From the NCBI GenBank assembly GCA_903844735.1, contig CAIMUX010000022.1, positions 1-64,000 on the forward strand: a stretch of 64,000 bases of DNA, in the 5' to 3' direction. A program made the position numbers and the translations under genes. The notes below the pieces were generated by a model, which was not told the origin of the DNA, searched no databases, and saw only the letters and a list, made by a program, of their open reading frames with translations. This DNA comes from Candidatus Eiseniibacteriota bacterium. GTDB lineage: Bacteria > Eisenbacteria > RBG-16-71-46 > CAIMUX01. Numbering within the stretch: the first letter of the stretch is position 1; each line of letters begins with the position of its first letter. Shown one piece after another: positions 14,444-26,751 of this stretch.

Positions 14444-15238
14444 TCAGGATTCCGGCACTTCGAAGCGGAAGTCGGGCTGCAGTGAACGGATCTCTTCCTG
14501 GAGCTTGCTCATGCGGGTGCGCAGGTCGCCCCCGCGGGTCCGCTTCCACTCCAGGTAGAGGTCGAGCAACTCGTCCTGTTTTCCCTTGATCGAGTCCTCC
14601 CGGGCCGACTCGTTGACGACGCGTTCGAGGTGGTAGATCTCTCCGCGGCTAAGCGAGCGGACCAGGTTGAGGTACTCGCCGCGCATGTGGGCGAGAACCC
14701 GCAGGTACTTGTCGAAGCCCACGCTCAGCTTCTCCAGTACGTCGGTCACGGCCGCGTTTCGTCCGTGGATCTGCTGGCTGTACGAATAGGCGAAGCGGTA
14801 GTAGCTGCGGCCGCGCCCGAGGTCGGCCGCCTCCACCGGACGTGAGTCCCCCCGCGGTGGGCCGGGAATCGATTCCGCCGGACCCGCGCAGGCGGCGGGG
14901 TTATCGAAGATCCCAAGGCTGACGAGGAGGAAATCGGCGTTGGTCTTGTACAAGGTGTACTTCAGCCGGGCGTCCCGGGACTCACCGAGTCGCCGGAAGA
15001 CCTCGGTGTCGTACTTCGAAAGGAAGGACCGGGCGCGCTCCACATAGCCGGGGTTGATGAACGAATTGAGGAGGTGCGCGATGTAGACGTTCACGTCTTC
15101 GTCGTAGTAGTCCTTGTTTGAGACCAGTCCCGTCTCCATTCGGCTGTAGAGCAGGCACTTCATCATGAAGAGGTAGGTGGGGCGGAGTTCCCGCCCGGAG
15201 GTGGGGAGTTCCAGATACTGCTCGCGTGTGACCGTCAT
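14444..15238 (-). CDS. uncharacterised cytoplasmic protein, 264 aa
   Basis: I do not recognise a family. The protein has no signal peptide or membrane segment. The N-terminal part (YLFMMKCLLYSRMETGLV, DVNVYIAHLLNSFINPGY) and the rest are helical and rich in charged and aromatic residues. A run from about 180 to the end (EYLNLVRSLSRGEIYHLERVV, LLDLYLEWKRTR, MSKLQEEIRSLQ) looks like coiled coil. A Pro/Gly-rich insertion sits near residue 120-135. It stands alone between an M48 gene and a signalling operon on the opposite strand. The reading frame has normal high-GC codon use and is likely real. Confidence 0.6.
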   Translation of the reverse strand: MTVTREQYLELPTSGRELRPTYLFMMKCLLYSRMETGLVSNKDYYDEDVNVYIAHLLNSFINPGYVERARSFLSKYDTEVFRRLGESRDARLKYTLYKTNADFLLVSLGIFDNPAACAGPAESIPGPPRGDSRPVEAADLGRGRSYYRFAYSYSQQIHGRNAAVTDVLEKLSVGFDKYLRVLAHMRGEYLNLVRSLSRGEIYHLERVVNESAREDSIKGKQDELLDLYLEWKRTRGGDLRTRMSKLQEEIRSLQPDFRFEVPES

Positions 15239-15511
15239 GCTGCCCCCGCCGCTCTCGTCCCTCGGAAATGCATCGCCGTCATTGACGGAGACGCCCGTGT
15301 CGTGCTACACTTACAGGTGTAACGATGGAGTCGCGGCAATGCGTGTGCCACCCGTACGCCGGTCGATGTCGGTGCCCGCATCTTCCGGTGCCATCGCCTC
15401 CGGCGGCTCCGGGTCCAGGTCCGGGATGGCTCCGGTCCCGGTTTTTGCTCGTGCGGGGCGCACGACCCAGCCGCTTCGGCGGTGCAACCTGCGGATGGAC
15501 GGAGGCGCGCA

Positions 15512-16501
15512 GTGGAAGAACCGAGGACTCGATACGAGGGTTGGCGAGGCGGCGGGCCGCGATGGCGGGCCGTGGTCCTGGTCCTGCTCCCTCCCGTCTT
15601 CCTCTGTGCGGCCTACTTCCTGTTCGAGGAGCTTGTGCTCCGTCCGGTGCTGCGTTCCGACCTGCCGCTCTGCCTGGCCTTGCGTTTGGGGGGCGCCGCC
15701 CTGGCGTTCATCTCACTGATCTTTGCGGCGGCCTGTGGGTATCTCCTGGCCGAGCATTTCCTGCGTCCGCTGCGACTCATCCTCCGCCTGGCCGAGAGCG
15801 GCGAGGTGCAGCCCGAGCGGGTGGACTCGCTGCATCAGCGGGGGCGCGAGTATGCAGACCTCCACCGTCTCCTGCGCGTCTTGGTGAATCAGAACAAGGC
15901 AGGGGCCCGGGCCATGGAGGAACTCGATCAGTTGCGGGCGGCGCTGGCCCGTTTCCGCGAGGAGTTCTCCCGCACCGGTCTTCACGGAATCCCACCCGAG
16001 GTGACCGCGATGGGGCCGGTACGTGAGGTCGCCGTTCATGTCCAGGCCAAGCGAAACCACCTCCTCTCGTTCTTCCGCGACTTGCGCGAACGGGTAGGAC
16101 GGGTCCGCCTGGAAGTGGAGCAACTGAGCGCCTGCCTTGAGTTGCAGGATGATGGCAAGGATGTCGGCGAGGGCATGGCGGTCGCCGCGGTGAACGTGGG
16201 TGCCTCGCTGGACCGTTTGCGGCAAATCGGAACGGTGTTGGCCCTGGAATCCGCGCGGGCGGGCGGGCAGCCCGCGCGGCGAGCGGCGGACATGCTTGAC
16301 CGCTTCCATGCCGGGTTGGGCGAGCTCGAGGTGACCATCAAGGCGCTGCCGACTGCCGTGCGCGGCAACGGTGATCGGCGGGCGGCAGCGCCCGATTCGA
16401 CGGCGGCCTCGGATCGGATGGAGTTGCGGGAGCGGTGGCGATCGCTGCTGGATGGGATCGAGTCGATTGAGCGGCGGCTTGAGGAGGTAGAGGAGCGATG
16501 A
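15512..16501 (+). CDS. membrane protein with HAMP-like and coiled-coil regions
   Basis: The 329-aa protein has two hydrophobic helices at roughly residues 20-38 and 54-80, separated by a very short loop. A HAMP-like segment (FLRPLRLILRLAESGEVQPERV) and long cytoplasmic coiled coils (AMEELDQLRAALARFREEF, LEVEQLSACLELQDD, ending SIERRLEEVEER) follow. It has no extracellular sensor and no methyl-accepting or kinase signature. It resembles a stripped chemoreceptor-like scaffold. GTG at 15512 was chosen because GGAGG lies 6 bases upstream; an in-frame GTG at 15482 has none. The stop overlaps the next start (ATGA), so it is coupled to the CheW-like gene. Confidence 0.7.
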   Translation: MEEPRTRYEGWRGGGPRWRAVVLVLLPPVFLCAAYFLFEELVLRPVLRSDLPLCLALRLGGAALAFISLIFAAACGYLLAEHFLRPLRLILRLAESGEVQPERVDSLHQRGREYADLHRLLRVLVNQNKAGARAMEELDQLRAALARFREEFSRTGLHGIPPEVTAMGPVREVAVHVQAKRNHLLSFFRDLRERVGRVRLEVEQLSACLELQDDGKDVGEGMAVAAVNVGASLDRLRQIGTVLALESARAGGQPARRAADMLDRFHAGLGELEVTIKALPTAVRGNGDRRAAAPDSTAASDRMELRERWRSLLDGIESIERRLEEVEER

Positions 16502-17835
16502 ACGGCCCCAAACCGGCCCGGCCCGCGCGGCTCGCCTGGGAAGATCAGGCGGCCATGATGGCGCCCCTTCTGCGCGGCTGGGCCCTCCTGCGGGAGCGGG
16601 AGGGCGAACTACTCCGGCGGATGGCCGAGTTTCTGGAGCAGTCGTCCTGCGGCCGGGGTGCGGTCGATTCGGCGATGGATGCCGATGTGGAGACGGGCGC
16701 GCCACAGAGAGATCTTCCAGATGACCCCATGGTCCATCCCGCGGACGATCCCGAATGGATCGACCGGACGATTGAGGCGGTCCTGGCCGGCGCTTTCTCC
16801 CAGGAGTCCGAGCCGGAGGCGGCCGAGCTTCCGGCTGTGGACCTGCTGCTCCTGCGCAGCGGTGACACGTGGGTGGGTATGCCTTGGGATCGTGTCACCC
16901 GTCTAGGTTTGAGCGACGACGCTCAGTTGGCGCCGCCGTGCGTTCCTCTCTCTCTTCGCGAAATTCTCGGGCTCGGAAGAATGGGGGCCGGTCGTGACGA
17001 CGCGGCCGAACCCTATGGCCTGACGTGGGAGACCGCCGGCGGGCCGCGCTCGCTCTGCTGCGAAGTGCTTGGGGGCGTGCTGGTCGCCTCGGCCGCGGCG
17101 GCACGGGAGGTCGATCTCGTCTGGCTGCCCGACGACTCGGAGGCGGGTGGTCGACTGCTGCCTCTGGTTGAGTTCTTTGCCTCGCTCGGACGCGATGGCG
17201 ATCAGGATGTCGAAGTGCCTGACCTCGATCTCGATGACACGGATCGTGCGAGCAGTCCTTCGCAGGCGACGGCGGACCCTGTGTTTGCGGAATCTCCGCC
17301 TGCGCCGGCTCTTTCTCCCCCCATCACGGATGTTGCTCACGACGCGGGTTTGAACCCGCTCGCCGCAGATCCTTGGGAAACCGGGCCGCCCCGGCACTCT
17401 GAGCCGGACCACGGCGGCTCTCCCGGCGGCACGCGCCCCCTGCCGTGTCCCCGGGGGGGGGCGCGCTCGGCCCTGGTCTCCGTCCGGTATCTGCCGGCCA
17501 GGGTGGCCATCGCCCGCGCCCTTCGGTCCCACGGTTGGTTGGTGCTCGAAGCCGCCGATGCCGGGGAGTTGCCCGCCATGCTTCAGCGGGCCCATCACGC
17601 CGTCGTTTTCACTGAGGCGCCGGAACGGCCCGAACCGGGGTGGGCCAAGGGATTGGCTTCCGCCCAGGAGGACGGGACCCGGGTCATCGGCGTCGCCTCC
17701 CGTCTCCGAGGAGTCGCCGGAGACCCGTGGGCGAACCTGGGACCGATACCGCACCTGCTGTATCCATTCCAGGAGGCGGAGCTGGATAGACTTATCGAAC
17801 TGCCCGTACAGCCCGTACAGCCCGAGCGCCGGTAG
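16498..17835 (+). CDS. CheW-like domain protein with degenerate C-terminal receiver
   Basis: The 445-aa protein has three parts. The first 110 residues are helical and acidic. A CheW-like domain follows (VDLLLLRSGDTWVGMPWDRVTRL to VLVASAAAAREVDLVWLP). After a disordered Asp/Pro/Ser linker of about 100 residues comes a receiver-like fold (RSALVSVRYLPARVAIARALRSHGWLVLEA) that lacks the phospho-accepting Asp and acidic pocket. The family role would be scaffolding between a sensor and a kinase, but no CheA is encoded nearby. It may instead link the membrane protein upstream to the regulator downstream. A 272-bp gap without visible genes separates it from the next gene. Confidence 0.65.
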   Translation: MNGPKPARPARLAWEDQAAMMAPLLRGWALLREREGELLRRMAEFLEQSSCGRGAVDSAMDADVETGAPQRDLPDDPMVHPADDPEWIDRTIEAVLAGAFSQESEPEAAELPAVDLLLLRSGDTWVGMPWDRVTRLGLSDDAQLAPPCVPLSLREILGLGRMGAGRDDAAEPYGLTWETAGGPRSLCCEVLGGVLVASAAAAREVDLVWLPDDSEAGGRLLPLVEFFASLGRDGDQDVEVPDLDLDDTDRASSPSQATADPVFAESPPAPALSPPITDVAHDAGLNPLAADPWETGPPRHSEPDHGGSPGGTRPLPCPRGGARSALVSVRYLPARVAIARALRSHGWLVLEAADAGELPAMLQRAHHAVVFTEAPERPEPGWAKGLASAQEDGTRVIGVASRLRGVAGDPWANLGPIPHLLYPFQEAELDRLIELPVQPVQPERR

Positions 17836-18107
17836 GCACGAACCTCGCCTTCCTCCTCGCTCCTTGATCTCGCCCGCCACACCCATGAGAGTGGCCCTTT
17901 CGTGACGATGATGGGCTCCGGGGTTCTCCCGGGCCCGCGGGGTTCGTCCGACGGGGCCCCGCACCTCCCATGGTTTCGGCCCGCTTCGGGTGCCATCGAT
18001 CTCCCTCCCGATTTCGTGCGTCTCCCGGGTTCAGTTCCCGCTGCCGGCGGCCGAAACCATTTCTGTGTGACCGCTTGCCGGGCCGGATCGTCGGCCGGGA
18101 GAGATGC

Positions 18108-19673
18108 ATGCAGGAAGAAGCCCAGGCGAAACAAGAGACCATCCTCGTGGCGGACAACGACGCGCGCGTCGTTGAGCTTCTGCAGATCACGCTGTCGGGA
18201 CGCGGTTACCAGGTCCTGGTGGCCCACGATGGCGCGACCGCGCTGGGTCTCCTGCAGGAGCGACGTCCCGATCTGGTCGTCTTGGACACGCGGCTTCCGA
18301 TGAAGAGCGGCTACGCGGTTCTCGACACCGTGCGGAGGGACGAGGCGCTGAGTCACACGCCGGTCATTCTCATCTCGACCGACGCGGCCACCGAGAGCCG
18401 GCTGCAGGGGCTGCGCCTCGGCGCCGACGACTACCTAGTCAAGCCGTTTTCTCCGCGCGAGCTGATCATCCGCATCCGTCGCATCCTCGACCGGATGCAG
18501 GATCGCAATCTCCTCCTCCTCCGCAACGAAGTGTTGGAGGAAGAGGTCCGCCGCCATCGCGCGACGCTCCTGGCCATGCGAAACGAAATGGGCGATTCGT
18601 TGAACCGGATGGGCACGATGGTGGGCCAGGTGATCGAGCTCAGTCGCTATCGCTCCATCGACGAGATTCTCGATCGTTTCGTGGTGACGACGGCCGCCAA
18701 TCTCGACTACCGGCAGGTAGCCCTGCTGATTGCCGATCCCGACGGAAACTTCGCTCCTCGCACGTGGCGTGGAGTGTCCGATCCGGCGATCCGAAGCCTC
18801 ATCGTGCGCGTCGATGGGGCGGTGGCGCGTCTTTGCGCGGCGACGCGGCGGCCGGTGCGCACCGACGAGCTGGCCGAACTGCCGGAAGCCCATGAGGAAG
18901 TGCTGAGCCTCTCGGCGGCGGGGCTCACGCTCCTTGTGCCGGCCTTGGGGGATGATCGCCTTTTCGGGATCTTAGCCCTGGGCGAGCGCGGATCGGGGCC
19001 GGCGCTCGGCCGTTTCGACTCCAAGCTGTTGGAGATTCTCGGCCGCTCTATCGTCGCCGCGCTGCAAAACGCCGAGTCATTTGAGCGGGCGCAGCGGAGT
19101 TTCCTCGAGACGACGGCCGGGCTCATCGGCAACATTGAGGAGCGGTACCCGTGCATGGAGGGGCATTCCGAGCGGGTCACCCTCCTGTCGGTGAAGTTAG
19201 GGCAGGCGCTCGGGCTCGACGGTGAGGTGCTGCAGTCGCTTCGGTTCGGTGCTCTCCTCCACGACCTCGGGCAACTGGAGCAGTACCGCGAACTGCTGGA
19301 TCGCACCGTGATCCTGAGCCCTTCCGACCGAGTGCTGCATCGCCGTCGCACGGCGGAGCAGACGGTCCAGCTTCTCGGTCCCGGCGGGCAGGGCGCGGTT
19401 GGCGCGGTGGTGCGGCACCACCAGGAGTACTGGGACGGAACCGGCCTGCCGGATGGCTTACGCGGGACCGAGATTCCGCTGGGGGCGCGCATCGTGGCTT
19501 TGGCCAACGCCTGGGATGCGCTGATCCATGACCGTCCGCACCGGCCCGCCTATGGGCCGGAATCGGCGTTGCGGATCATCCGTGATCGGGCCGGACGGCA
19601 ATTCGATCCCGGATTGACGGACCTTCTGGCCCGGTTGATGGACAGGGTTCCGGCCGGGGTGCTCGTCCCGTGA
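18108..19673 (+). CDS. REC-GAF-HD-GYP response regulator (probable c-di-GMP phosphodiesterase)
   Basis: The 521-aa protein has an N-terminal receiver with an acidic pocket (D16/D18), phospho-acceptor Asp60 (VVLDTRLP) and Lys112 (VKPF). A helical linker, a GAF-like domain (about 180-325) and a C-terminal HD-GYP domain follow. The HD pair is in GALLHDLGQ (385-386) and the downstream His pair in HHQEYWDGTGLPDG (437-450), so the GYP triad reads GLP. HD-GYP enzymes hydrolyse c-di-GMP. ATG at 18108 follows GGGAGAG; a longer frame from 17970 adds an unrelated leader. The gene lies between the CheW-like and CheD-like genes, suggesting that phosphorylation is tied to c-di-GMP turnover. Confidence 0.88.
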   Translation: MQEEAQAKQETILVADNDARVVELLQITLSGRGYQVLVAHDGATALGLLQERRPDLVVLDTRLPMKSGYAVLDTVRRDEALSHTPVILISTDAATESRLQGLRLGADDYLVKPFSPRELIIRIRRILDRMQDRNLLLLRNEVLEEEVRRHRATLLAMRNEMGDSLNRMGTMVGQVIELSRYRSIDEILDRFVVTTAANLDYRQVALLIADPDGNFAPRTWRGVSDPAIRSLIVRVDGAVARLCAATRRPVRTDELAELPEAHEEVLSLSAAGLTLLVPALGDDRLFGILALGERGSGPALGRFDSKLLEILGRSIVAALQNAESFERAQRSFLETTAGLIGNIEERYPCMEGHSERVTLLSVKLGQALGLDGEVLQSLRFGALLHDLGQLEQYRELLDRTVILSPSDRVLHRRRTAEQTVQLLGPGGQGAVGAVVRHHQEYWDGTGLPDGLRGTEIPLGARIVALANAWDALIHDRPHRPAYGPESALRIIRDRAGRQFDPGLTDLLARLMDRVPAGVLVP

Positions 19674-19710
19674 AGCGGGTCGACGACCGACCGGAGACGG
19701 AGGACCGGCA

Positions 19711-20190
19711 TTGGTGGTAGAGGTGGGACACATGATCTTGGTGGGGCTGGGTGAGATGTACCTCACGCAGGGTGATGGAAGAGTGCTGGTGGCGCGCTGT
19801 CTCGGCTCGAGCGCGGCGGTGGCCGTCCACGACCCACAGACCGGGGTGGCCGGACTCCTGCACTGGATGCTGCCCGCGTCCAGCATCGACCCATCCAGAG
19901 CTGAACGGAACCCCTACCTCTTCATCGACACGGGTCTGCCGCGGTTCCTTGATTCGGCGGTGAAGCGGGGCGCGCGCCGAGCCGAACTCACCGCCTGTCT
20001 CGCGGGCGGGGCCGCACTGCCCGATGGTGGCGAGTATGACGTCGGGAGTCGGAACCGCGACGAGGCGCTGAAGATCCTGGCGCGGGAGGGCCTTGTGATT
20101 CGACAGGAGGAAACCGGTGGCACGGTCGTGCGCGAGTTGAGTCTGGAGATGGGGCCCGGCCAGTTCGCCGTGCGCAGCCTGAACCTGTAG
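19711..20190 (+). CDS. cheD: CheD-like protein lacking the catalytic cysteine
   Basis: CheD deamidates receptor glutamines using a Cys-His-Thr triad. This 159-aa protein has the fold signature LGSSAAVAVHDPQTGVAGLL, then HWMLP, but the invariant Cys of LGSC is Ser34. His51 is retained. The rest matches CheD: FIDTGLPRFLDSAVKRGARRAEL, AGGAAL and the EETGGTVVRELSLE end. It may therefore act as a binding partner or decoy rather than as a deamidase; Cys30, four residues earlier, is unlikely to substitute. TTG at 19711 follows GGAGG with a 7-base spacing. No chemoreceptor or CheC is encoded here. Confidence 0.85.
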   Translation: MVVEVGHMILVGLGEMYLTQGDGRVLVARCLGSSAAVAVHDPQTGVAGLLHWMLPASSIDPSRAERNPYLFIDTGLPRFLDSAVKRGARRAELTACLAGGAALPDGGEYDVGSRNRDEALKILAREGLVIRQEETGGTVVRELSLEMGPGQFAVRSLNL

Positions 20191-20206
20191 GAGAATGGGA
20201 GGAGCG

Positions 20207-21049
20207 ATGCTGGAGCACGAGACGATCCTGGCCGGGTTGAAGAACCTGCCGGCGGCCCCGCTGGTACTGGTCCGGATCCTCATGATCATGGATGATCCCA
20301 AGACGGGCTCGAACGAGCTGATCGAGGCGGTCGAGCTCGACCCGGGTGTGACCGCGAATGTCTTGCGCATGTGCAACTCCACGTACTACGCGGGCACGCG
20401 GCAGCTCTCCACGCTGCAAGAGGCGGTCCACCGTCTCGGCATGCGGACCATCCAACAGATGGTGACGATGCGGGAGAGCGAGTCGTTGCTGGGCGGAGCA
20501 CATGAGGGGTATGGCCTGGCAGCGGGAGATCTCTGGAGGCACTCCGTCTCCACCGCCCTGGCCTGCCGGCTGCTCGCGCACCGTGTGGGCTACCCTCGTG
20601 TCTCTGTCGCTTTCACCGGCGGCCTTCTCCACGACCTCGGGAAGATCGTCCTCGACGTCTTCCTGCGGAAGCGCTACCAGGAAGTGCGTGCCCGGGTGGA
20701 GCAGGGCGCAACCTTCCAGGATGCCGAGCGGGAGGTGTTCGGCGTCGAGCACGCCGATCTCGGGGCGCGCATTGCCGAGAAGTGGGGTTTCCCGGAGTCA
20801 CTGATGCGGGCCATGCGCTACCATCACCAGCCCGAGGAGGCGGACGGCGATAACGACCTCTGTGCCCTCGTCCATCTCGGGGACTCCCTTTCGCACTGGC
20901 TCGGCGTCGGGTTGGGCCGCCCCGGCCTGGCGAACCGGTTTGCCGCGTCGGCCGTGCGCATGTTCTCGCTCCAGCCGGAGGATCTCGATCGGATCCTCAT
21001 CGAGCTGGTGGAGAAGTTCGAGGAGACGGAGCAGAGCCTGGCGGCGTGA
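20207..21049 (+). CDS. HDOD-domain signalling protein
   Basis: The 280-aa protein is almost entirely an HDOD domain, a HD-superfamily output module common in bacterial signalling. Characteristic segments are LPAAPLVLVRILMIMDDP, IEAVELDPGVTANVLRMCNS, LQEAVHRLGMRTIQQMV, FTGGLLHDLGKIVLD and MRAMRYHHQPEEAD. HDOD proteins usually lack enzymatic activity and act through protein contacts, often in motility or c-di-GMP circuits. ATG at 20207 follows GGGAGGAGCG; the in-frame GTG at 20195 does not. It is the last gene of the operon-like series that starts at 15512 and follows cheD by 16 bp. Confidence 0.85.
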   Translation: MLEHETILAGLKNLPAAPLVLVRILMIMDDPKTGSNELIEAVELDPGVTANVLRMCNSTYYAGTRQLSTLQEAVHRLGMRTIQQMVTMRESESLLGGAHEGYGLAAGDLWRHSVSTALACRLLAHRVGYPRVSVAFTGGLLHDLGKIVLDVFLRKRYQEVRARVEQGATFQDAEREVFGVEHADLGARIAEKWGFPESLMRAMRYHHQPEEADGDNDLCALVHLGDSLSHWLGVGLGRPGLANRFAASAVRMFSLQPEDLDRILIELVEKFEETEQSLAA

Positions 21050-24706: not shown

Positions 24707-24966
24707 GGCGCCTCCGATCGTCTGAGCCCGACTCACATTCTATCCGGGACGCACGCTGAGATCTATGCACGGCATCCCGGCCCTGATCGGGGCACCGGTA
24801 GCCGCGACCGCCGGTAGGTGGTGCGTCCCACCATCAAGGAGATGTTCGATGAGATCCGAGAATGACCGCCACCGCGATCAGTGCTAGCATGCCCACGGTT
24901 CAAGAGCGTCGCCGACGCTCGTTCTTGGGTCCACGTCCCCGAGCCGGCACCTGACGGGAGGTCATG

Positions 24967-26751
24967 ATGGCTGCCAACGACATGGCGCGCAGGAATCTCA
25001 TTGCGCAGTGGGCATTCGACACCCGCCCGATCCTCGGTCGTTTCCATCTATGGCTGGAGGACGTTGAGGTGGAGTGGATCAGCGGCGAGGGGCTCCGAGA
25101 GTTGCGCGACGTGATTTCGTTCGTGGGCGGGGGCATGGAGCGCCTGTTCACCATGACCGCCGGCGTGTCCGCGTTGGGTACCCGGCTCTTCGGCCGCTAT
25201 GGCGAGGGCGCCGGGCTCGACAAGCAAGGACTGAACCGCGTCAAGAAAGACGCCGACGCGATTTCCGCCTACCTGATGAGCGAGTGTCTCTGGTACCTGA
25301 CCCGCACCCTGCCCGAGAACCATGCGGTCATGGTGTGCCTCGGCGAGGGGCTGATGCCGAAGGCCGGCGAGACGCCGGAGATGGGCGCCAACCCGATGCT
25401 CGGCTTCGGCCGCATATATGCCCGGCCGGAGGTCGCCAAGTTCCTCGACCGCCAGGTGCGGAAGCTGATCAACAACCAGTACACATGGAGCGAATTCCAG
25501 TCCCGCATCGATCTGGCCGGCATCACGATCTGGGGGACTGCGATCGACACGCTGGAGAACACCAGCCGTTTCGCGTTAGGAGCGCCCACCGGCCCGCTGG
25601 CCGTGCTGCACGTTTTCGATCAACCGCTGTCGGTCACCAAGCCCTACGAGGGCTATATGGGCAACCTGATCCTGCCGCGAGAGGTTGCACGAGCTGCGGC
25701 CGGTGACTCGTTGCTGATTGATTTCCACACGCCGCGTGCCCTGGTCATGCAGGCGTGCCGCAAGGCCTGGCCCGATCTCGAGCCGCAGAACATCCACGTG
25801 TGGACCCTCGGCGGCAAGAGCCGCGTTGAGCGCATCGGCGAGCTGTGGGCCGAGTGGAAAGCCGTCGGCGCCCATGTGGCCGAGGATGGATGGATCCTGC
25901 CCACCGGCCGCGCCCTGTTCAACGACTCGGGCACCTACTCGCCGACACAGATTGTCCGTGCGTGGCTGGACGAGCAGGGGGTGCGCCATCTATTCCTTGT
26001 GGACGGTTATGCCGCCTCGGCGGAGGCGATGCAGGCGGCCAGCTTGGCACCGATTTTGGACCTCGACGTCTTCCTGGCCGTCTTCAGCTCCACCTTCAAG
26101 TTGCCATTTCGCCGGGAAGGCGAGGTCATGCAGCTCGATCCCCGCGATGAGGAGTTCGTGCCCAAGCTGGAGCGCATCCTCGGTGCGCCCGTGGACGCCG
26201 CGACCGAACAGACCTACCGGGGCTACATCCGCGACGTCATCGACGCCAACATCCCGCTCAACAAGCGATTTCTGATGGCCGACGACTTCCTGCCCCGCAA
26301 GCGCTGGGACGTCATGGCACTCAGTGGTTTCATGCTCGACGATCCCTACGTCGGCGGGCCCGGCGTCGAGAAGATCGACGATGACACGTACAAGGTGACA
26401 GTCAGGCTCTCCACGCCGCGGGGGATCAAGCAGGTCACGCTCACACTGCGCTTCATGGAGCCGCCTGCTGTCCGCCGGCTGGTCTGTAATCCTCTGCTGA
26501 ATCGCTTTCTGCGTGGGGAGGACCACCGGGAGCGGCCGGTGAAGATCTCCGACTCCGGCCGGATTCGTAACGAACTGCAGACCCTCTGCTCGGATGCGCT
26601 CGATCACTTCGGAGAATCCGGCGTGCGGGTTCACTTCGACCGCATCCCACCCGACGTGATCGTGCCGGCGGACCAGGAGCGCCTGCGCGAGATCCTGTAC
26701 TGGTACAAGAAGCACCATCCGCTGTGGTTCAGTTGGTTGGAGTTGGCGTAG
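24967..26751 (+). CDS. uncharacterised protein, 594 aa
   Basis: I do not recognise this family. There is no signal peptide or membrane helix. The first third is mixed alpha/beta (AFDTRPILGRFHLWLEDVEV, RKLINNQYTWSEFQSRIDLAG). The middle (HTPRALVMQACRKAWPDL, HVWTLGG, then GTYSPTQIVRAWLDEQGV, HLFLVDGYAASAEAMQAA) alternates strands and helices like a Rossmann-type or phosphoryl-transfer fold. The last third (IDDDTYKVTVRLSTPRGIKQ, KKHHPLWFSWLEL) is beta-rich then helical. ATG at 24967 lies 5 bases after GGGAGG; another ATG at 24964 is too close to it. Codon use is typical for the window. It is a single gene, divergent from the glycosidase-like gene. Confidence 0.7.
   Translation: MAANDMARRNLIAQWAFDTRPILGRFHLWLEDVEVEWISGEGLRELRDVISFVGGGMERLFTMTAGVSALGTRLFGRYGEGAGLDKQGLNRVKKDADAISAYLMSECLWYLTRTLPENHAVMVCLGEGLMPKAGETPEMGANPMLGFGRIYARPEVAKFLDRQVRKLINNQYTWSEFQSRIDLAGITIWGTAIDTLENTSRFALGAPTGPLAVLHVFDQPLSVTKPYEGYMGNLILPREVARAAAGDSLLIDFHTPRALVMQACRKAWPDLEPQNIHVWTLGGKSRVERIGELWAEWKAVGAHVAEDGWILPTGRALFNDSGTYSPTQIVRAWLDEQGVRHLFLVDGYAASAEAMQAASLAPILDLDVFLAVFSSTFKLPFRREGEVMQLDPRDEEFVPKLERILGAPVDAATEQTYRGYIRDVIDANIPLNKRFLMADDFLPRKRWDVMALSGFMLDDPYVGGPGVEKIDDDTYKVTVRLSTPRGIKQVTLTLRFMEPPAVRRLVCNPLLNRFLRGEDHRERPVKISDSGRIRNELQTLCSDALDHFGESGVRVHFDRIPPDVIVPADQERLREILYWYKKHHPLWFSWLELA

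Follow-up and report, generated by a model that had tools for sequence, protein, structure and literature searches.

In the usual understanding, chemosensory arrays serve to control the autophosphorylation of the kinase CheA. What, then, can chemosensory-like genes do when the kinase is missing from among them? This question is raised by a locus of Candidatus Eiseniibacteriota bacterium, studied here within a window that comprises the first 64,000 nucleotides of contig CAIMUX010000022.1 (GCA_903844735.1). A first-pass annotation had described the locus as a chemosensory scaffold that has been repurposed, has a receptor-like membrane protein and lacks a linked kinase, and this description is borne out by homology to MCP and CheA that we traced through relatives. 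On balance, we lean towards the view that a three-gene core of the locus represents an eroded chemosensory complex, which lost its kinase and was kept as a non-catalytic scaffold around a phosphorylatable response regulator. Sequence comparison gives good support to the descent from MCP and CheA, to the absence of kinase motifs, to the loss of catalytic residues from the HD-GYP and CheD proteins and to the retention of the core at one locus. Titles and abstracts retrieved from the open-access literature describe neither a kinase-less chemosensory unit nor chemotaxis genes of Eisenbacteria, which is weak evidence of novelty.

Gene content of the locus

Five ORFs, all on the plus strand, occupy positions 15482-21049 (Table 1), as had been annotated, and Pfam confirmed REC, GAF and HD-GYP (HD_5) domains in the third protein, CheD in the fourth and HDOD in the fifth. 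The genes of the membrane and middle proteins overlap by 4 bases, and the CheD and HDOD genes are separated by 4 bases. The ORF of the regulator opens at 17970, the ATG at 18108 being the likelier start; with this start, a gap of about 270 bases lies between the second and the third gene. Such an operon structure is compatible with the scaffold that we favour. A sigma-70-like site upstream of the first gene counts for little (one match, 0.5 expected). On the 130-kb contig, profiles of CheA, CheW (Pfam model), CheR and MCP had no match, in agreement with the earlier statement that CheA, CheR and MCP are not linked to these genes. Further downstream, the window encodes a 595-aa protein (24964-26751, plus strand) with no significant match in Pfam or NCBIfam.

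Table 1. Genes and domains of the locus, in window coordinates.
Feature	Position	Strand	Basis
Divergent neighbour, 264 aa, family unknown	14444..15238	-	Locus marker across the phylum
Membrane protein, two TM, HAMP-like segment and coiled coil	15482..16501	+	ORF; profile chain to MCP
Middle protein, CheW/P5 plus receiver	16498..17835	+	AlphaFold2 model and fold match
P5/CheW-like domain of middle protein, residues 111-219	16828..17154	+	Match to CheA P5 4jpb_A
Dead receiver domain of middle protein, residues 323-435	17464..17802	+	PhoB receiver profile match
REC-GAF-HD-GYP response regulator, degenerate phosphodiesterase site	18108..19673	+	Pfam; residue table
CheD family protein without catalytic Cys and Thr	19711..20190	+	Pfam CheD, E 2.7e-19; alignment
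HDOD domain protein	20195..21049	+	Pfam HDOD, E 7.7e-54

Descent of the membrane and middle proteins

The membrane protein has no significant Pfam match. Read from its sequence, it possesses two hydrophobic stretches resembling membrane helices, between which some 13 residues of loop stand in place of a periplasmic sensor domain, and a HAMP-like segment followed by a coiled coil. The conserved tip of the cytoplasmic signalling hairpin (PF00015) is absent, and the protein is therefore not classed as an MCP in its own right. A PDB profile search returned coiled-coil matches only, which were discounted as unspecific. Its relatives nonetheless identify the protein as MCP-derived. In profile-profile alignments, each E-value being that of a single hhalign comparison, the short form found in the window matches the long form of family f10 (E 9.9e-16), and the long form matches the MCP of families f7 and f9 (E 9.5e-22). 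The f7 and f9 membrane proteins exceed the PF00015 (MCPsignal) cut-off, except for that of G019, which falls narrowly below it, and the f10 protein matches PF00015 weakly. The part held in common by the MCP-like proteins of f7 and f9 and the window protein is thus the transmembrane and coiled-coil region; membrane proteins of the module differ from MCPs by having no periplasmic sensor domain, and the window form has in addition lost the tip.

The middle protein likewise has no significant Pfam match. An AlphaFold2 model, which rests on 16 sequences, predicts a helix at the N terminus, then a P5/CheW-like domain (pLDDT about 90) and, after a disordered proline-rich and acidic linker, a receiver-like domain (residues 323-435). 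Residues 111-219 adopt the two-subdomain SH3-like beta fold of CheA P5 and CheW; the best structural match is the CheA P5 domain 4jpb_A (Z 10.3, 98 residues, rmsd 2.7), followed by that of 1b3q (Z 9.8) and by CheW proteins (Z 8.0-9.4), and since matches within one Z unit count as tied, a closer relation to CheA P5 than to CheW is only mildly favoured. In PDB profile searches with the middle proteins, receivers were the only credible matches, and a profile of the relatives matched PhoB receivers over the receiver region (E = 8.8e-4). Alignments show that this receiver is dead, the acidic pocket, the phospho-Asp and the Lys all being missing, so that the first-pass description of a CheW-like protein with a dead receiver holds. 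Neither a dimerisation domain nor ATP-binding N and G boxes are present, and the protein does not qualify as a CheA kinase.

CheV is a CheW fused to a receiver, and the middle protein resembles it in the order of a CheW-like domain and a receiver. In this comparison, which was made with the general description of CheV, assignment to CheV was rejected: a CheV receiver can be phosphorylated, that of the window protein cannot, the nearest fold is CheA P5, and the relatives indicate descent from CheA.

Direct profile matches to CheA are not significant for the window-type middle protein (E 0.24) or for that of f10 (E 0.18). Therefore, the link to CheA goes through the fold and through f7, and it is on the fold and the relatives that the proposed CheA descent of the window protein rests. 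Profile-profile comparison connects its P5 part with f7 (E 9.8e-5) and its receiver with f10 (E 6.7e-10). The f7 genes are arranged in the order CheW, MCP, shrunken CheA and HD-GYP, and a profile built from 14 genuine CheAs of the same phylum aligns over P3-P4-P5 with the f7 middle protein (E 3.6e-10), the latter being devoid of the ATP-site N and G boxes. In f9 the order is CheW, MCP, CheW and REC-GAF-HD-GYP; the middle gene encodes a CheW-sized protein that matches both CheA P5 (E 8e-8) and the f7 remnant (E 1.4e-9), and the CheW gene upstream of the MCP is a second one. The f10 middle protein is about 600 residues long, and its model comprises, besides P5 and a receiver, an alpha/beta domain and a helical domain at the N terminus. 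Its fold resembles CheA P3-P5 (Foldseek E 6.5e-11 to 6s1k_A, the top eight matches all being CheA); the VIA-align list for this long form was filled by receivers and was uninformative on the CheA part. Compared with CheA, including hybrid CheA with a receiver, the f7 protein aligns over P3-P4-P5, the f10 form has a CheA-like fold with a receiver end, and the window protein retains only the P5/CheW-like domain and the dead receiver.

A bolder reading takes f7 and f9 as the key: an ancestral, kinase-less working unit in which a tip-bearing MCP, together with CheW proteins and the remnant of CheA, would signal by direct contact to an intact REC-GAF-HD-GYP phosphodiesterase, in genomes without CheA, the window locus being a later version whose output has become non-catalytic as well. 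CheA was not detected in the f9 genomes, one of which is a single contig, and the HD-GYP site is complete in all sampled proteins of f7, f9 and f11. We regard this reading as possible but less likely than not.

The core in Eisenbacteria and the absence of CheA

The membrane protein, the CheW/P5-plus-receiver protein and the REC-GAF-HD-GYP regulator form a core. It exists in several forms, one or other of which is present in 40 of 47 Eisenbacteria genomes, a count made up of 32 genomes found with the membrane-protein profile at E < 1e-15 and eight f7 loci of the more MCP-like form that were read directly; the other seven may lack the core or be incomplete. At nearly every locus of sufficient length the core lies divergent from the neighbour gene (Table 1), L076 being an exception, and most of these loci also have guaB nearby. 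The neighbour protein is 48-74% identical across Eisenbacteria and has no significant match in Pfam, NCBIfam or PDB sequences. Its profile found 21 loci among 84,980 species, all labelled Candidatus Eisenbacteria or unnamed bacterium, and it is apparently a phylum-specific protein and a good marker gene. Conservation of the whole gene order, which the first-pass annotation had proposed to look for, applies to the core and not to all five genes. The five-gene operon was rejected as a conserved unit, since the locus of G002 and G003 has neither CheD nor HDOD and that of G005 is followed by HDOD only; for the five-gene order, the annotation's own grounds for refutation (an order not conserved) are thus borne out.

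With a profile of the CheA dimerisation domain, CheA was found in 19 of the 47 genomes. No match was obtained in 24 of the 40 genomes that carry the core; half of this group are 90% complete or better, and one member, G021, consists of one contig. As the genomes are draft assemblies, the absence is firm only as a pattern. CheW and MCP profiles found only proteins of the module, or nothing, in the same 24 genomes. The genome of the window has three CheA as well as complete che operons, all of them encoded on other contigs (C6, C73, C79, C64, C121). Complete che operons with CheA close to the genes in relatives had been named in the first-pass annotation as evidence against it; the comparison does not bear this objection out, the che operons of the window genome lying on other contigs and 24 of the 40 carriers having no CheA at all. 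Phosphorylation of the regulator by an unlinked kinase is possible, and in the 24 genomes CheA is excluded as that kinase.

The CheD and HDOD genes are best regarded, from their distribution, as additions to the core from che-type operons. In G001, G008 and G009, CheD and HDOD are paired within che-type operons, and within the module CheD was seen in the window genome only. The window HDOD and the HDOD located behind the f4 module are sisters (support 96/89), and these two are nearest to CheD-linked HDODs (91/90); HDOD may therefore have joined the module before the split of f1 and f4. In the window CheD, the catalytic Cys is replaced by Ser (GSC to GSS) and the Thr by Ala, with the His kept, and it does not qualify as a CheD deamidase; we take these three residues to be the active site, as is generally assumed for the family. 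All three are present in the che-operon CheD of the same genome (L041). A pair is also found in G004, where profiles of CheA, CheW, MCP and CheR were all without a match and where CheD again has no Cys.

These observations bear on the proposal that the genes are an auxiliary arm of ordinary chemotaxis, in which a CheA encoded on another contig phosphorylates the regulator and CheD and HDOD belong to the same network. The three CheA of the window genome and the che-type setting of CheD-HDOD pairs in relatives are in line with it, but the 24 core genomes without CheA argue against a general dependence of the core on the kinase, and the window membrane protein has lost the very tip that binds CheA and CheW. 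We consider this proposal doubtful.

Two minor observations were made on the way. In G004 (L056:7474-9331, contig C112), the Cys-less CheD adjoins, besides HDOD, a short protein that by eye is CheX/CheC-like. Three CheW proteins have a split CheW domain (L164:3047-4012 in G000:C80, L165:2987-4069 in G000:C95 and L166:2307-3695 in G034:C143), interrupted near profile position 65 by about 120 additional residues; these contain the motif C-x-F-G-x-W-Y, PH and IH, which resembles that of the CZB zinc-binding domain.

Output domains and possible function

The receiver of the regulator retains the phospho-Asp, Ser and Lys, and the protein is accordingly counted as a response regulator. The first-pass annotation had called this receiver intact, which is true of these three residues but not of the second acidic pocket residue, an Asn in the window protein and D in most relatives. 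The HD-GYP domain tells a different story; its degenerate site, like the missing catalytic Cys of CheD, had gone unnoticed in the first-pass annotation. In PmGH numbering, H189, H221, D222 and H276 are kept, and five residues are replaced (D183Y, K225Q, H250R, H277Q and D305N), the state of D183 having been read by spacing from a printed alignment. Alanine at H189, H221, D222, H250, H276, H277, D183 or K225 abolishes the activity of PmGH, and mutants of D305 and E185 retain weak activity (PMC4159591). Since four of the five replaced residues (D183, K225, H250 and H277) are essential in this solved enzyme, the window protein is very probably not a phosphodiesterase. An inactive HD-GYP protein, Bd1817, is already known (PMC4159591). 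The protein thus shares the REC-GAF-HD-GYP order and the four kept residues with the REC-containing HD-GYP phosphodiesterases RpfG and TM0186 (with PmGH as reference) and differs from them at the five replaced positions. Its motif reads GLP, and GYP in f7, f9, f11 and G002, a genome of the same family as the window; GYP substitutions alone did not abolish PmGH activity (PMC4159591).

Loss of the site is not confined to the window. Of the eight f1-f4 proteins sampled, none retains H250 or D305 and only one retains H277, and in f10 the whole site is lost and the HD domain eroded. On the tree built from the neighbour protein and GuaB, families f1-f4 group together in a single clade (99.8/100) to which f10 does not belong, and the active site has therefore probably disappeared on two or more occasions.

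Since the HD-GYP domain, CheD and the CheA part have all lost active-site residues, and this in several lineages, the locus might be seen as a decaying relic without present function, and the altered CheD and the Asn in the acidic pocket of the regulator could indeed be decay. The conservation of the core disfavours mere decay: ORFs, gene order and locus are kept across deeply diverged families, and the receiver residues of the regulator are kept in nearly all members, unlike the catalytic ones. A relic is therefore improbable. The claim made in the first-pass annotation, that a receptor-like protein and a CheW-like scaffold control c-di-GMP breakdown by an HD-GYP protein phosphorylated by an unlinked kinase, is highly improbable for the window genome, for although the receiver keeps its phospho-Asp, Ser and Lys and the model is reasonable in f7, f9 and f11 with their complete sites, residues required for catalysis are replaced in the window, key ligands are lost throughout the f1-f4 sample, and the domain is eroded in f10.

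Without kinase, phosphodiesterase and deamidase, binding and phosphorylation of the regulator are the steps that are left, and it is for this reason that we favour a scaffold that presents the regulator to a partner. The function that we infer for the core is as follows. The ancestor would have combined a receptor, CheA/CheW and a response regulator with HD-GYP output, and the kinase would have been lost early in the phylum; in the f1-f4 lineage, to which the window genome belongs, the receptor tip and the HD-GYP active site would have been lost as well. The three core proteins would form a membrane-bound, non-catalytic scaffold, in which the response regulator would be kept in position by the coiled coil of the membrane protein together with the P5/CheW domain. 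The regulator might read the phosphate on its receiver, supplied by another histidine kinase or by acetyl phosphate, as well as a ligand in its GAF domain, and potentially acts through the dead HD-GYP domain by protein contact or ligand binding. CheD and HDOD would have been added in the window genome as further binding proteins.

As the core is kept without the kinase part of CheA, and even in genomes without any other CheA, its components either can signal without a phosphorelay or serve another purpose. This question becomes testable through the gradation from intact output in f7 and f9 to dead output in f1-f4 and f10. It also follows that an HD-GYP domain adjoining chemotaxis genes is no evidence of c-di-GMP turnover. 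In f7, several loci encode an extra protein between the CheA remnant and the HD-GYP regulator; in G027 (L173:10101-11915), this protein is a STAS-GAF-HD-GYP.
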